The translations under genes were made by a program, and so were the position numbers. The notes below the pieces were generated by a model that was not told the origin of the DNA, did not search any database, and saw nothing but the letters and a program-made list of their open reading frames with translations. Of a stretch of DNA of 64,000 bases, positions 39,881-47,850 are shown in pieces (position 1 is the first letter of the stretch; each line of letters begins with the position of its first letter). Source of the DNA: Pseudanabaena yagii GIHE-NHR1. Lineage in GTDB: Bacteria > Cyanobacteriota > Cyanobacteriia > Pseudanabaenales > Pseudanabaenaceae. The DNA lies in the NCBI RefSeq assembly GCF_012863495.1, contig NZ_JAAVJL010000001.1, positions 868,001 to 932,000 on the forward strand, in the 5' to 3' direction.

Positions 39881-41698
39881 TTACTGTGGTTGAGTAGAAG
39901 AAATTTGCCATTGCTCTAAAGATTCATTCCATATCAAGCTCATTCTTAATGTTTCAGGAATAATGACTTTATTTTTGTTCTTATCTATTTTTTGATAAGT
40001 AATATCAACATCGATAATTGCTGAATCTCCTTTGATTTCCACCAAACGCGATCCAGTTACAGAAACCTGATCGATAGTATTCCAAAAATCATTAAAAACA
40101 CTACGTCCCTTTGCTCGATCAGTTTGGAAGCTTTGGGTAAGATTTTTCCATGCTGTGTCATATTGGCGAGAGTTGACCAGACTATAATAGTTCTTGACAA
40201 ATTGTGTAGGAGAAGGTTTTTCTTTTTGAGTTGGAGTTGGTGAAGGTGTGGGAGTTACCGAAGGAGAAGCAGAAGGAGAAGTGGATACTTGTAACTGCTC
40301 ACCAGTAATACGATTAACAGGATCTTTGGCATTTAGACTTGCAAAGGCACAATAGGCATCAGGAACTTTCTTCACGTAAGTTTTGAGATTAGTCGTACAA
40401 CTATTAGCATCAGCAAAGGGAATTGCATAGACCTGATAATATTTACTATTGCCAAGATTCGGATAGTCAGGTATCCAAAAAGCCCCTGCTTCTTTAAATC
40501 CATCATTGACAAGAGCTTGCACCCTCAAGTTGGCATAGTTCTTATCATCAAAAGCAGAATCTGCAAGAAAATAGAAGGTTTTCTTATCGACTGATTTATT
40601 AAATGGAGAGATTTTATTCCAGAAGGCGACGATGCCACCATTTTGAGAAACGACAACACCTAAGGCGATCGCTGCACCAATTGCACCGCCAACAATCATC
40701 GTTGCTACGGCTTGACCAAAGATTTTTTTCTTAGGATCATTTTGGGGCTGATAGACATAGATATCAGGTTGATTTTGAATCGCAGGTGGGGCATAGCCTC
40801 TTGGCGTTACCGCTACTGTCTGCATATTAGACATAGCGGGCTGGACGGGAGCCTTGACTACATTTACTGGATTTGGGGATTGACCAACTTGCAAAGCATT
40901 CAACATTTCTCGCGCCGAACTGTAGCGATCGCGAGGATCAAACTGGAGCGACTTCGTGAATATAGCTCTTAAATCAGAGCTAATACCAGTAACTTGGTTT
41001 TGCCAAAGCACTTCACCAGTTTGGGGATCAGTACCCAATTCCTGTGGATATTTGCCCGTCAGCGCAAAGATCGCAGTTAAGGCGAGACTATAGAGATCGC
41101 TAGCAAAAAATGGTCTACCTGCCGCCTGCTCTGAAGCCATAAATCCGGGTGTCCCGATCACAATCGAATGAGCCTGTTGAGCAGAACTGCGGATTGTACT
41201 TACATTTAAAGTCTCTTTGACTGCGCCAAAATCAATCAGTACAGGTTCACCAGATCGCAAAATAATATTATCGGGCTTAATATCACGATGAATAATGCCC
41301 CGTTCATGAACATAGATCAGCGTTTGAAGAATGCTACTCATTAAGTATCGAACAGCATCTTCATTCCATTTACCATTCCTTTCTATAGTTTCCGTTAAAG
41401 TTAAACCATCAATCCATTCTTGGACTAAATAGAACAATCCATTTTCTACAAAATTAGCATAGAGTTTAGGAATGTAGCGACTTTCCTCCCCTAAGGTTTC
41501 GAGCACCACTGCTTCACGATGAAATCGTTGCTGTAATAATTCATACATTTGAGGATTATCCGCAACGGGCTTGAGTTGCTTGATCACACAACGACGATTA
41601 GAGGGCATTTTGGTATCTTCAGCCAAATAGGTCTCACCAAAGCCACCACTACTGAGGACGCTAGTGACGCGATAGCGGTTATCTAAAAGGTTTGACAT
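39881..41698 (-). CDS. Ser/Thr protein kinase, membrane-anchored, with extracytoplasmic domain
   Basis: I start at 41698 (605 residues); ATG codons at 41701 and 41725 are alternatives. The kinase domain (about 1-275) has SSGGFGETYLAED, K40 in CVIKQLKPV, HRDIKPDNI and DFGAVKE. A transmembrane helix follows (AVATMIVGGAIGAAIALGVVV, at about 330-352), then a SPOR- or DUF-like segment and a SPSASPSVTPTPSPTPT linker, and an NTF2-like C-terminal domain (FVKNYYSLVNSRQYDTAWKNL). It is a signal-transducing kinase with a periplasmic sensor of unknown ligand, of the Hanks type common in cyanobacteria. Confidence 0.92.
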   Translation of the reverse strand: MSNLLDNRYRVTSVLSSGGFGETYLAEDTKMPSNRRCVIKQLKPVADNPQMYELLQQRFHREAVVLETLGEESRYIPKLYANFVENGLFYLVQEWIDGLTLTETIERNGKWNEDAVRYLMSSILQTLIYVHERGIIHRDIKPDNIILRSGEPVLIDFGAVKETLNVSTIRSSAQQAHSIVIGTPGFMASEQAAGRPFFASDLYSLALTAIFALTGKYPQELGTDPQTGEVLWQNQVTGISSDLRAIFTKSLQFDPRDRYSSAREMLNALQVGQSPNPVNVVKAPVQPAMSNMQTVAVTPRGYAPPAIQNQPDIYVYQPQNDPKKKIFGQAVATMIVGGAIGAAIALGVVVSQNGGIVAFWNKISPFNKSVDKKTFYFLADSAFDDKNYANLRVQALVNDGFKEAGAFWIPDYPNLGNSKYYQVYAIPFADANSCTTNLKTYVKKVPDAYCAFASLNAKDPVNRITGEQLQVSTSPSASPSVTPTPSPTPTQKEKPSPTQFVKNYYSLVNSRQYDTAWKNLTQSFQTDRAKGRSVFNDFWNTIDQVSVTGSRLVEIKGDSAIIDVDITYQKIDKNKNKVIIPETLRMSLIWNESLEQWQISSTQPQ

Positions 41699-41857
41699 CA
41701 TGGAGTTAATTAATCGCCTATTCATCGCCTATTCATCATTATTAGGGATCGTACAGCATATCGAGACTATAAAGTAACTCAGTATGGTTATTTGTGTCGC
41801 CTGCTTGAAGGCACAAATAACTACGCTGAGCTAAGTACTTCAGCGTAGTTGTTAACC

Positions 41858-41910
41858 AAGCCAAAATTGCTGCGACGCATGCCTAGCGTGCGTCGCAGCA
41901 ATTTTGGCTT
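41858..41910. repeat. Perfect palindrome with 22-base arms
   Basis: aagccaaaattgctgcgacg plus ca pairs exactly with the right arm around a nine-base loop. It lies 21 bases beyond the stop of the first BLUF cyclase gene on the minus strand and upstream of the Ser/Thr kinase, making it a likely processing or termination hairpin. A second imperfect hairpin is found at 41789-41850. Confidence 0.65.
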
Positions 41911-41930: not shown

Positions 41931-43001
41931 CTACCTAATTGATTGACAAGTAATTAGTTCCAAATGTTGCTTAATTTCCTGCTTAAGTTTATGAAAGTCT
42001 GATTTTTGGAAGGTTAACACATCGTCAACGGAGTACACTTCTACAATACTTTCTCTACCTTTAGTATGGAAATCACCAAGTCTTACAGGCTTCCAGCGAT
42101 CGCTTAATCCTGCGCGTACGGAGGCTGAAAACACGAGAAATCGATTGAGCTGTCTAGTCAGAGATTCTATTCTAGCGGCAACATTTACCGCATCGCCAAT
42201 TACTGTATATTCTTTCTTAGTTTGCGAACCGATATTTCCTTCTAAAACAATCCCTTTCGATAAACCAATGCCAATATAAAGCACACGCAATGGACTGTTT
42301 GCAGGAGCTTGATTGCGTAAAACCTCTAGTTCTGCCAGAATATCAAGGCTTGCTTGCAAGGCGGCATCGGCGCGATCACCATTAAAATAAGCCATCACAC
42401 AATCACCAATAAATTTCGTGACTTCTCCTCCTCTTGCGGTAATTGCATTTGTACAAATGGTAAAAAAGTGATTGAGCAAATCTACTACTTCTGCAACCTG
42501 TAATTTTTCAGTAATACTAGAGAAGGAAATTACATCACTAAATAGAACTATTTTTTCGGTATATTGAGGCTTCAGTGTCAGGGGATTAATGCCATGCTCG
42601 ATCGCCTGTAGCACTCCTGACTGCGTATAGCTGGCTAAAATCGTTTGAGATTCGCCTAAAGTTTGCAATAAAATCTTGATTGGTTGCATCAAAATATCAT
42701 TATTTTCATCAAGCGAAATTACTTCCATCGACCATTCAGGAAAGCGACGATCAGTAATATTTAGCTCTGTTTTGAGACATAAAATTTGATTGTGGCGATC
42801 GTCTTTCAAGATCTTTTCGTAGAGACGATCAATCCTATCTTCTTCCCCTTCTAAAATCTGAAAGAAAATCCCATTGCAACTCAGTAAAACCCCTGTAATT
42901 CCTTCACGAGAATTATTCGTCTGCGAAATACTACCAATGCTCTCTATTTCTTTTTTGGTAAGTGATCGCGAGAAGCTACTAATATAAGTTAGCCTTTTCA
43001 T
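41931..43001 (-). CDS. Photoactivated adenylate cyclase (BLUF-class III cyclase), copy 1
   Basis: The 356-residue protein aligns along its length with bPAC and OaPAC. The BLUF domain (1-100) has flavin-cycle residues Y6, Q48 (GIFFQILEG) and W90 (FPEWS). A linker helix joins it to a class III cyclase domain (about 145-340) with metal Asp D156 in LFSDVISFS and D200 in KFIGDC, purine-recognition K196 and T266, and the transition-state residues in GDAVNVAARIE. All residues needed for light-stimulated cAMP synthesis are present. The T266/K196 pair predicts ATP over GTP. It has a tandem paralogue upstream on the same strand, separated by about 350 bases. Confidence 0.92.
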   Translation of the reverse strand: MKRLTYISSFSRSLTKKEIESIGSISQTNNSREGITGVLLSCNGIFFQILEGEEDRIDRLYEKILKDDRHNQILCLKTELNITDRRFPEWSMEVISLDENNDILMQPIKILLQTLGESQTILASYTQSGVLQAIEHGINPLTLKPQYTEKIVLFSDVISFSSITEKLQVAEVVDLLNHFFTICTNAITARGGEVTKFIGDCVMAYFNGDRADAALQASLDILAELEVLRNQAPANSPLRVLYIGIGLSKGIVLEGNIGSQTKKEYTVIGDAVNVAARIESLTRQLNRFLVFSASVRAGLSDRWKPVRLGDFHTKGRESIVEVYSVDDVLTFQKSDFHKLKQEIKQHLELITCQSIR

Positions 43002-43354
43002 AAAATTGAGAATTGATTTACACGAAAGAATCCGATCTGAGACATATTAGCGATTAGTTGTAGCGCTTGGCACTCAAGCCCAAAGCAATAGATACAAGTA
43101 TGAGTTGCCAATACCTTCAAAAAACCTATTGTGGTTAATTGGATCAAAAATTGCTGTAAAAGCGAAAAAGCCTAAGCTTCTTTACTACTTGTAACGCAAA
43201 TAAGGAAAGAAGGGTTATAAGCAATACGGCGTATGTTTCTTCACATCTTCTATAGTAACGCTTCTGAGCGTATATAGCGTTTCCCAGTCTAGTGGTATGG
43301 ATTTGTTTCCCGCCTTTGGTGAGGCAATAAACCTTTATCTTCTGGGCTTTATGT
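43002..43354. other. Intergenic region between the two BLUF cyclase genes
   Basis: No gene is visible in these 353 bases. The text tatatagcgtttcccagtct at about 43277-43296 matches tatatagcctttcccagttt near 52421, part of the type A/B repeat cluster. Promoters for the downstream cyclase are presumably here. Confidence 0.5.
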
Positions 43355-44467
43355 CTAGCGATCGTACAGCTTAAATAGTGTTTTGCGTTGTTTGTAAGAT
43401 ACTAGGGTTTGCTTCCCTATGAGTTCAAGCTGCTCATTAATCTCTTGTTTGAGATGGTGAAAATCTGATTTTTGAGATGCCAAGGGATCGTCAATCGAGT
43501 ATACCTCCACGATCGCTTCTCTTCCTTTAGCATAGAAATCACCCATTTTTAACAATTTCCAGCGATCGCTAAGTCCCTCTCTTACGGCTGCCGAAAACAC
43601 TAAAAATCTATTTAACTTTCTAGTTAGCGATTCGATTCTTGCCGCAACATTAACAGCATCACCGATGATTGCATACTCTTTTTTGGTTTGAGAACCTATA
43701 TTTCCTTCTAAAACTGTTCCTTTAGATAGACCAATCCCCACATAGAGAACTCGCAACGGACTATTAACAGGGGAGCGATCGCGTAAAATCTCTAACTCTG
43801 AAAGAATGTCCAGACTTGCTTGTAAAGCTTCATTGGCGCGATCACCATCGAAATATGCCATCACGCAATCGCCGATAAACTTCGTAACTTCACCGCCTTT
43901 AGCTGCGATTTCTGACGTGCAAATTGTAAAAAATTGATTGAGTAACTCCGCAACTTCGGTCACTTGCAATTTCTCAGTCATACTGGCAAAGCCCATAATA
44001 TCCGCAAAGAAAATAATCTTTTCGGTATAGCGTGGAGTCAGGGTAAGCGGATTAACTCCATTTTCGATGGCTTGTAAAATCCCTGAATGAGTGTAGTTCG
44101 CCAAAGCCATTTTTGACTCTCCCAAGCTTTGCAGCAATATTTTAATTGGCTTTAATAAAAACTCGTTGTTTTCATCTATTAAAATTGCTTTCATCGACCA
44201 TTCGGGAAAGAATCTCTCAGTGATATTCACTTCAGACTTCAGACATAAAACCTGATGGTGACGATCATCTTTTAAAATTTTTTCATACAGTAGATCTACT
44301 CGATGATCGTCCCCTTCCAAAATCTGAAAAAAAATACCACTACAACTCAGTAAAACACCTGTAATCCCATCCCTAACATTATTTGTTTGTGAAACAATTT
44401 CAATATTTTCTATTTCCTTTCTGGTTAATGAGCGTGAGAAATTACTAATATAGGTTAGCCTTTTCAT
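43355..44467 (-). CDS. BLUF-class III nucleotidyl cyclase, copy 2 (Ala at purine position)
   Basis: The 370-residue protein aligns without gaps to copy 1 over the first 340 residues and keeps Y6, Q48 and W90 of the BLUF domain and cyclase residues D156 (FFADIMGFA), K196 and D200. Position 266, which is Thr in copy 1, bPAC and OaPAC, is Ala (KKEYAIIGD). This residue contributes to adenine recognition, so specificity or activity may differ. A longer C-terminal tail (KQTLVSYKQRKTLFKLYDR) is also unique. It lies upstream of copy 1 and may be transcribed with it. Altered purine choice is inference. Confidence 0.88.
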   Translation of the reverse strand: MKRLTYISNFSRSLTRKEIENIEIVSQTNNVRDGITGVLLSCSGIFFQILEGDDHRVDLLYEKILKDDRHHQVLCLKSEVNITERFFPEWSMKAILIDENNEFLLKPIKILLQSLGESKMALANYTHSGILQAIENGVNPLTLTPRYTEKIIFFADIMGFASMTEKLQVTEVAELLNQFFTICTSEIAAKGGEVTKFIGDCVMAYFDGDRANEALQASLDILSELEILRDRSPVNSPLRVLYVGIGLSKGTVLEGNIGSQTKKEYAIIGDAVNVAARIESLTRKLNRFLVFSAAVREGLSDRWKLLKMGDFYAKGREAIVEVYSIDDPLASQKSDFHHLKQEINEQLELIGKQTLVSYKQRKTLFKLYDR

Positions 44468-44766
44468 AGAATTGCAATATTTTAATTAAAAAAATGATCA
44501 ATCACTGTCAGAATGTCCCAGTGATTTTTTGTAAAATGAAGCTTCCCTAACTATCTTTTAGCTCAATTAATACCCCAAGGGTAATCAGCAATAAGGCGTA
44601 ATTGGCTTAAATATGCCTTAAATGTATAGATTTCGACTATTTGCATCATATAGCACTAAATCCCAAGTTCAGGAAGGAAGCGCGATATAACGACCTCCTT
44701 ATCAAGTTGTGTCTTCTTGTTTCGCTTGGTGCGATAGGATTAAAAGTGCTGCTTTAAAGTTTATAA

Positions 44767-47128: not shown

Positions 47129-47176
47129 GTCATAATTTTAATATTGCTGTCTGCAACTACGCTAGAGCGAAAGTCA

Positions 47177-47461
47177 ATGCAACAAACTATTACTAAAGAT
47201 CAAGAATCTAGCACCAATATTTCCTTAGATGATGAGGTGCTAAAAATCCTTGCGAAAATGCCAGATGCTCTCAAGGTCGAGGTTCTGCATTATGCGGAAT
47301 ATATATTGAATAAGGGAACTGAAAAATCATCTGGTGTTGCGCTCGCAAGTGATGACATATCCAAGAAAAAGTATAGACAAGCTGGAACAATGGTGGGGCT
47401 GATCGCAATGTCAGATGACTTTGATGAGCCATTGGCAGAAATGCGCGAGTATATGGATTAA
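47177..47461 (+). CDS. DUF2281-type antitoxin
   Basis: I choose ATG 47177 (94 residues); a start at 47144 adds 11 unlikely residues. SLDDEVLKILAKMPDALKVE and VLHYAEYILNK match the DUF2281 family, often found upstream of PIN-domain toxins. The C-terminal part, QAGTMVGLIAMSDDFDEPLA and EMREYMD, is the typical toxin-binding tail with acidic residues. The PIN gene starts five bases after its stop, so the two are coupled. It would neutralise the toxin and probably repress the pair. Confidence 0.86.
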   Translation: MQQTITKDQESSTNISLDDEVLKILAKMPDALKVEVLHYAEYILNKGTEKSSGVALASDDISKKKYRQAGTMVGLIAMSDDFDEPLAEMREYMD

Positions 47462-47466
47462 TTCCT

Positions 47467-47850
47467 ATGCTTTTAGATACGCATACTCTACTTTGGTTTC
47501 TCAATAATGACTCACGTTTGCCCGTAAGCGTAAAGCAAAAAATTGAAGAGACTGAGCTTGTATTTGTTAGTTCTGTTTCTATTTGGGAGATAGCAATCAA
47601 AATTAATATTGGCAAATTAAATATCCTGACATCTTTTGAAGCAATCAAAGAGAATATGAATGCTCTGAATATTCAAGAGTTGCTAATTGAATTTGACGAT
47701 AGCCTTACCTATATTGACTTACCTATCTTAAAGGAACATAAAGATCCCTTTGATCGGATGATTGTTGCTCAGGCAATGCGGCGATCGCTGACTCTAGTTA
47801 GTGCAGACAAAAAACTTGATGCTTATCCAGTTAAGAGACTCTGGGAATAA
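47467..47850 (+). CDS. vapC: VapC-type PIN-domain toxin
   Basis: The 127-residue protein has a complete PIN nuclease core. Acidic metal ligands are D4 in LLDTHTLLWF, E41 in SIWEIAIKI, D96 in DPFDRMIVAQA and D114 in LVSADKKL. VapC toxins cleave specific RNAs such as tRNA or rRNA. It lies five bases after a DUF2281 antitoxin gene, completing a type II module. The gene starts with ATG at 47467. It appears intact, in contrast to the truncated PIN gene at 49205. Confidence 0.9.
   Translation: MLLDTHTLLWFLNNDSRLPVSVKQKIEETELVFVSSVSIWEIAIKINIGKLNILTSFEAIKENMNALNIQELLIEFDDSLTYIDLPILKEHKDPFDRMIVAQAMRRSLTLVSADKKLDAYPVKRLWE

Follow-up and report, generated by a model that had tools for sequence, protein, structure and literature searches.

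Tandem BLUF–class III cyclase (PAC) genes with a conserved difference in the C-terminal tail in Pseudanabaena

The window analyzed here is the whole stretch of 64,000 nucleotides taken from Pseudanabaena yagii GIHE-NHR1 (genome G000), which contains two intact and complete PAC reading frames in tandem on the minus strand. Among the neighboring genes the kinase was named by its Pfam match, and rpiA, cbiT and other names were assigned by eye. The features of the locus, in window coordinates, are as follows.

44577–44600, minus strand: core of a conserved upstream element, ~110 nt before the start codon of the long-tail gene (upstream alignment).
44468–44766, no strand: intergenic region from the rpiA-like gene (opposite strand) to the long-tail PAC gene, 84% identical over 301 columns to G023.
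43355–44467, minus strand: PAC gene of the long-tail ("B") lineage, 370 amino acids, A266 and G159, leading gene of the pair.
43002–43354, no strand: intergenic region of 353 bp between the PAC genes, in which the element occurs once more; identity to G015 and to G023 is 84% over 282 columns.
43210–43233, minus strand: second copy of the upstream element, ~209 nt before the start codon of the short-tail gene (upstream alignment).
41931–43001, minus strand: PAC gene of the short-tail ("T") lineage, 356 amino acids, T266 and S159.
41861–41907, no strand: inverted repeat of 20 pairs between the short-tail PAC gene and the kinase gene, unique in the genome at up to three mismatches.
39881–41725, minus strand: Ser/Thr protein kinase gene, conserved neighbor downstream of the PAC locus (Pfam Pkinase, 7e-32).

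Pairwise alignment of the long-tail and short-tail proteins showed 265 identities over 355 residues (75%) without a gap. Both proteins matched the Pfam families BLUF and Guanylate_cyc, with E-values of 4e-28 and 1e-26 for the BLUF domain, and for both of them the nearest solved structures were OaPAC and then bPAC (best E-values of 4e-132 and 5e-123), with homology over the whole length of ~350 residues. The AlphaFold model of the long-tail protein was only moderate (pLDDT 67, TM ~0.55; Foldseek E-value of 1e-38 to OaPAC), and therefore the assignment to this family rests on sequence. Among 15 checked positions, 13 were the same in both proteins (Y6, N30, Q48, W90, M92, Y125, D156, K196, D200, E264, Y265, N273 and R277). 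These include the flavin-site residues Y6, N30, Q48, W90 and M92 in the N-terminal BLUF domain, the metal aspartates D156 and D200 together with N273 and R277 of the class III cyclase domain, and K196, the base-selecting lysine of the pocket. Residue 264 is glutamate in both window proteins, while it is aspartate in bPAC and OaPAC. The two positions that differ are 159, which is serine in the short-tail and glycine in the long-tail copy, and 266 in the base pocket, the place of the lysine's polar partner, which is threonine in the short-tail and alanine in the long-tail copy. These data agree with the initial annotation, which described two complete PACs of the bPAC/OaPAC type in tandem, one of them with Ala266 and with its metal and flavin residues kept; the Ala copy, numbered second there, lies upstream and is transcribed first. 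Each protein taken singly is an ordinary family member; what is unusual is that they are paired and differ in a conserved tail. Among the matches listed in a search of the open literature, from which subscription papers are mostly absent, none gave activity data for a Pseudanabaena PAC, and none dealt with the PACs of this genus or with PAC genes in tandem; this silence is weak support for novelty.

The difference that consistently separates the two paralogues is located at the C terminus. In the long-tail lineage 20 residues follow position 350 in all ten rows that have a 3′ end, and they contain the conserved motif KQxKTLFxLYD; those of the window protein end in KQRKTLFKLYDR. In the short-tail lineage 2–10 residues follow this position in 17 of 19 rows, with six in the window protein, and the exceptions are G002 with 12 residues and G003 with 20 residues of other sequence. 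All five intact pairs consist of one long and one short tail, and the motif is kept between G001 and the other long-tail rows despite long-tail dS values of 1.34–1.75. OaPAC has 16 residues after position 350, and when expressed in HEK cells without at least nine of its C-terminal residues it gave 30–60 times the wild-type light-driven cAMP signal at the quoted intensity, while the lack of three residues gave a 1.5-fold, and of six residues a 14-fold signal (PMC6937261). The removal of the tail left the BLUF photocycle unchanged, and the OaPAC tail did not damp bPAC, so the effect is context-dependent (PMC6937261). By eye, the Pseudanabaena tail has no clear sequence similarity to that of OaPAC beyond hydrophobic residues, and the model of the long-tail protein is uninformative about the tail, with pLDDT below 50 over residues 355–370. 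Based on the effect of the OaPAC tail, the long-tail copy is predicted to be a low-gain, and the short-tail copy a high-gain cAMP photosensor. The tail is a better candidate for a real functional difference than the alanine, and, if the OaPAC effect may be carried over, it also gives better grounds than residue 266 for the possibility, raised in the initial annotation, that one copy is active and the other weak.

Genes for PACs (E-values up to 1e-60) were found in 23 of the 26 genomes of the genus and in 23 of the 38 genomes of the order, all 23 from this genus. A sample of 386 genomes from across the phylum gave 5 with a PAC, four of which belong to this genus, and a sample of 291 genomes of the order that includes G253 gave 19. 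Two intact copies are present in five genomes of the genus (G000, G012, G015, G022 and G023), G017 combines a short-tail copy with a truncated long-tail copy, and in G024 the pair is cut by a contig end. A single PAC is encoded in 16 of the 26 genomes, with the short-tail copy kept in 12 and the long-tail copy in 4, and three genomes are without a PAC. The long-tail gene comes first in G000, G015, G017 and G023, with 193–353 bp between the genes, while the short-tail gene comes first in G012 and G022, with 69–76 bp, and also in G024. The truncated copy of G017 (L021:486-1304) is without residues 1–102, which is the BLUF domain, and without the upstream element, and a cyclase frame of 273 amino acids is left. 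The only PAC of G006, a long-tail one, has its frame broken near residue 295; it comes from a metagenome assembly, in which an assembly error is possible.

The dN/dS ratios were calculated for reading frames under 420 amino acids with a recognizable start and over 340 amino acids from that start; missing from this set are the short-tail copies of G002, G003, G009, G011, G013 and G018, and the long-tail copies of G017 (truncated), G006 (broken) and G024 (cut). The data showed ratios of 0.044–0.198 for the long-tail pairs (n=28), and of 0.044–0.068 for the short-tail pairs (8/10 not saturated). The ratios of the window long-tail copy were 0.056 against G015 and 0.061 against G023, which rules out that the A266 copy is a decaying gene, and those of the window short-tail copy were 0.044–0.068 over its four comparisons. 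Both copies are under purifying selection. The dS values were compared in eight chosen genomes of the 26 (28 pairs), with the G017 fragment added, as simple pairwise estimates for a few genes, with the short-tail PAC, recA, rpiA-like, cbiT-like and kinase genes as comparators. Between different recA clades the long-tail dS was 0.38–1.05, and it was below every available comparator in 14 of 15 pairs, the exception being G012–G022, where rpiA was lower. In all seven pairs with G001 the long-tail dS exceeded that of recA, with no sign of lateral movement there. The low long-tail dS across recA clades suggests that the long-tail copy probably spread laterally inside the genus. Its repeated joining to the resident gene would explain the two gene orders, with internal rearrangement as the alternative explanation.

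The pair could then be an accident of recombination, in which a laterally moving long-tail allele lands by the resident copy and one of the two is later lost, without any division of labor. The existence of both gene orders, the low long-tail dS between recA clades, the retention of either one copy or the other in the 16 single-PAC genomes, and the damaged long-tail copies of G017 and G006 are each consistent with such a history. This explanation is rather unlikely, however, given the purifying selection on both copies and the preservation of the tail motif between the diverged G001 and the rest.

In the alignment of upstream regions, which covered 19 regions and was made without G001, G002, G003, G008, G009, G013, G020 and G024, an element with the core TTACGCCGTATTGCTGATTAC was visible in 17, and it was missing in G018 and before the truncated copy of G017. 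The core had exactly two matches with up to two mismatches in the window's genome, and the reversed-pattern control had none. Where the order is long–short, a further copy of the element stands before the second gene, which suggests that the two genes of the window are probably transcribed separately, and we infer that this would be under the same regulator. In genomes with the short–long order, transcription of the long-tail gene is probably dependent on the leading gene. A scan with promoter and terminator consensus sequences gave 7 and 2 sites versus 8.5 and 2.4 in shuffled sequences, hence none above chance, and none of its promoter-like sites was on the strand of the PAC genes. Three patterns for a CRP-like operator were sought in the intergenic regions and were not found there.

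The active sites of class III cyclases are composed of both chains, so that a mixed dimer of the two proteins would carry T266 in one site and A266 in the other, with only one long tail, and could be an intermediate or asymmetric enzyme. That the pair serves to form such heterodimers is unlikely, even though both proteins are homologous to homodimeric PACs over their full length, keep the site residues and align with each other without gaps at 75% identity. Thr266 is combined with Ala266 in four of the five intact pairs, while alanine is present in 2 of the 16 single PACs (Fisher p 0.011), but this enrichment is only a hint once the related G000, G015 and G023 are merged (p 0.097), and the pair of G022 has threonine in both copies. 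Additionally, the gap of 353 bp and the separate elements in the gene order of the window disfavor strict co-expression.

The order of an rpiA-like gene, a PAC gene and a Ser/Thr kinase gene is recurrent in the genus. Of the stretches fetched from 20 relatives, some of them no more than short contigs, 18 have the kinase gene after the PAC gene and 14 have the rpiA-like gene before it, and in G001, G008 and G012 the aligned part of the kinase gene starts 11–13 bp past the PAC gene. This closeness could reflect a light–cAMP–kinase operon, and the inverted repeat at 41861–41907 possibly uncouples the short-tail PAC gene from the kinase gene in the window. In the genome of the window the Crp helix-turn-helix family is matched three times and there are fifteen cNMP-binding domains, which suggests that readers of cAMP likely exist in the cell. 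This genome also encodes two CHASE2 class III cyclases, L106 (G000:C1:1671900-1673500) and L111 (G000:C6:41000-42600), which have glutamate at the place of K196, as in Cya2, and on the basis of this residue are candidate guanylyl cyclases. A BLUF-only protein of 148 amino acids is encoded by a separate gene of the same genome (L115:253-696; G000:C4:109178-109477). Elsewhere in the window, at 47144–47850, two short neighboring genes resemble, by eye, a toxin–antitoxin pair.

The initial annotation had proposed to look for recurrence of Ala266 in cyanobacterial PACs, and the residue is indeed recurrent. In a tree of proteins of at least 200 amino acids (a 92-residue fragment of G006 was left out), it is present in 7 of the 29 Pseudanabaena rows with a readable residue, out of 30 rows of the genus, while all 30 rows from outside the genus, OaPAC included, have Thr266, several of them being the same sequence entered twice. 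To explain it, the tree needs four changes, which fall in both lineages, and of these two are forced by well-supported branches alone; the residue is also clustered, with a mean of 6.7 changes after shuffling. The codon is GCA in six cases and GCT in G012. The long-tail copy has Ala266 in G000, G015, G023 and G017, and the short-tail copy in G012, G005 and G018, the last two of which have one PAC only. As an exclusive mark of one paralogue the residue was rejected, since Thr266 is present in 6 of the 10 readable long-tail rows (G001, G006, G007, G008, G012 and G022) and G012 has the alanine in its short-tail copy. Since either paralogue can carry it, and two genomes have it in their single copy, Ala266 is a recurrent substitution.

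The initial annotation was correct that the substrate of bPAC had been changed by the exchange of three residues, as K197E, D265K and T267G were used together there, and in vitro GTP was then preferred over ATP by only about 7 to 1 (PMC4569695). The proposed split into ATP and GTP output of the two window proteins was not supported. K196 is invariant in the 22 chosen PACs of alignment A1 (one of them, L092 from genome G482, from about residue 167 on), so that neither window copy has the glutamate typical of guanylyl cyclases at this place. The residue equivalent to 266 is glycine in Cya2, and the single change E488K made Cya2 ATP-specific (PMC5995499), so that lysine combined with glycine gave an enzyme specific for ATP. 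At the place of 266, C, S, T, H, A or G are listed for guanylyl cyclases (PMC4215837, introduction). An alignment of 18 further class III domains encoded in the genome of the window showed a PAC-like base motif in some and a different one in the rest, and those with the PAC-like motif had A, S, T or G at the 266 place together with lysine, and A or T together with glutamate. The open papers matching the terms CyaB1 and adenylyl cyclase contained no mention of CyaB1 Thr721 mutants. The kept lysine, the acidic residue 264, the Cya2 variant and the recurrence of Ala266 suggest that ATP likely remains the substrate, and that alanine in place of threonine, where the engineered enzyme has glycine, would tune rate, affinity or dark activity, and not base choice.

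Two other roles of the A266 copy have to be weighed. It is very unlikely that this copy has little or no cyclase activity and acts as a dark brake or decoy; the base-pocket change T267Y can abolish the activity of bPAC, but even K197A stays photoactivatable (PMC8522238), and the window copy has intact metal, transition-state and lysine residues and a dN/dS of about 0.06, while G005 and G018 have Ala266 in their sole PAC. It is highly improbable that substrate choice in the A266 copy is altered or loosened so that it makes cGMP, alone or beside cAMP, giving two messengers from one light signal, because, although bPAC 267 is among the positions exchanged in the engineered guanylyl cyclase (PMC4569695) and the two CHASE2 cyclases mean that cGMP may exist in the cell, K196 and an acid at 264 are kept, lysine with glycine is ATP-specific in Cya2 E488K, alanine occurs with both lysine and glutamate in the genome's other cyclases, and A266 is found in the sole PACs of G005 and G018.

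With moderate confidence, we consider it probable that both genes encode working blue-light-activated adenylyl cyclases, which convert ATP to cAMP and form a pair of a tail-damped low-gain and a high-gain sensor. In such a pair, the switch of the BLUF flavin would be relayed via the alpha-3 helix to the dimeric cyclase, whose base pocket holds K196. The alanine at 266 would remove one side chain of the pocket, and should alter affinity, rate or dark activity with the same base choice, while the main built-in difference would be the tail, with the 370-residue copy damped and the 356-residue copy of high gain. Two gains could widen the range of light intensity read out as cAMP, and in the gene order of the window the element before each copy would allow separate transcription under a shared regulator. 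It is decidedly doubtful that the pair is a selected two-gain light meter, consisting of a tail-damped and an undamped photocyclase acting partly as Thr266/Ala266 mixed dimers that would read one flavin signal at two sensitivities, with Ala266 acquired by either partner in two separate pair lineages. If the two-gain sensor is real, it would suggest how a single light quality can be sensed across a wide range of intensities. PACs are a main optogenetic tool for cAMP, in which dark activity and gain are practical problems, and at this locus the genus provides a natural series, with long and short tails, T266 and A266, single genes, and pairs in both orders. These natural sequences make the roles of the tail and the base pocket testable, and the case of A266 warns that one pocket residue is a poor guide to substrate choice.

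Among known systems, bPAC or BlaC of Beggiatoa (PDB 5m27 and others) has the same architecture as both window proteins, and a short tail like that of the short-tail copy (PMC6937261). Its engineered guanylyl cyclase bPGC or BlgC combines K197E, D265K and T267G, while in the window A266 copy only the third of these positions is changed in kind, and to alanine. The Synechocystis guanylyl cyclase Cya2 (PDB 2w01) resembles the A266 copy in its class III domain and in the small residue, glycine, at the place of 266, but it has no BLUF domain and the wild type has glutamate at the place of K196; with lysine there, as in Cya2 E488K within PaaC (PDB 6fht), it becomes ATP-specific (PMC5995499). OaPAC of Oscillatoria acuminata (PDB 4yus, 5x4t and others) is like the pair in its combination of BLUF and class III cyclase domains, its gapless alignment over ~350 residues and its flavin and catalytic residues, and in length its tail is nearer to that of the long-tail copy. 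It differs in having T266 and D264 and another tail sequence, and it is only about 52–57% identical. A protein identical to OaPAC is encoded in genome G473, which has one PAC match, in contrast to the pair described here. The Euglena PAC alpha/beta can be likened to this pair, as more than one BLUF–cyclase unit acts together, although each Euglena chain has two BLUF and two cyclase domains, while here there are two separate bacterial genes.
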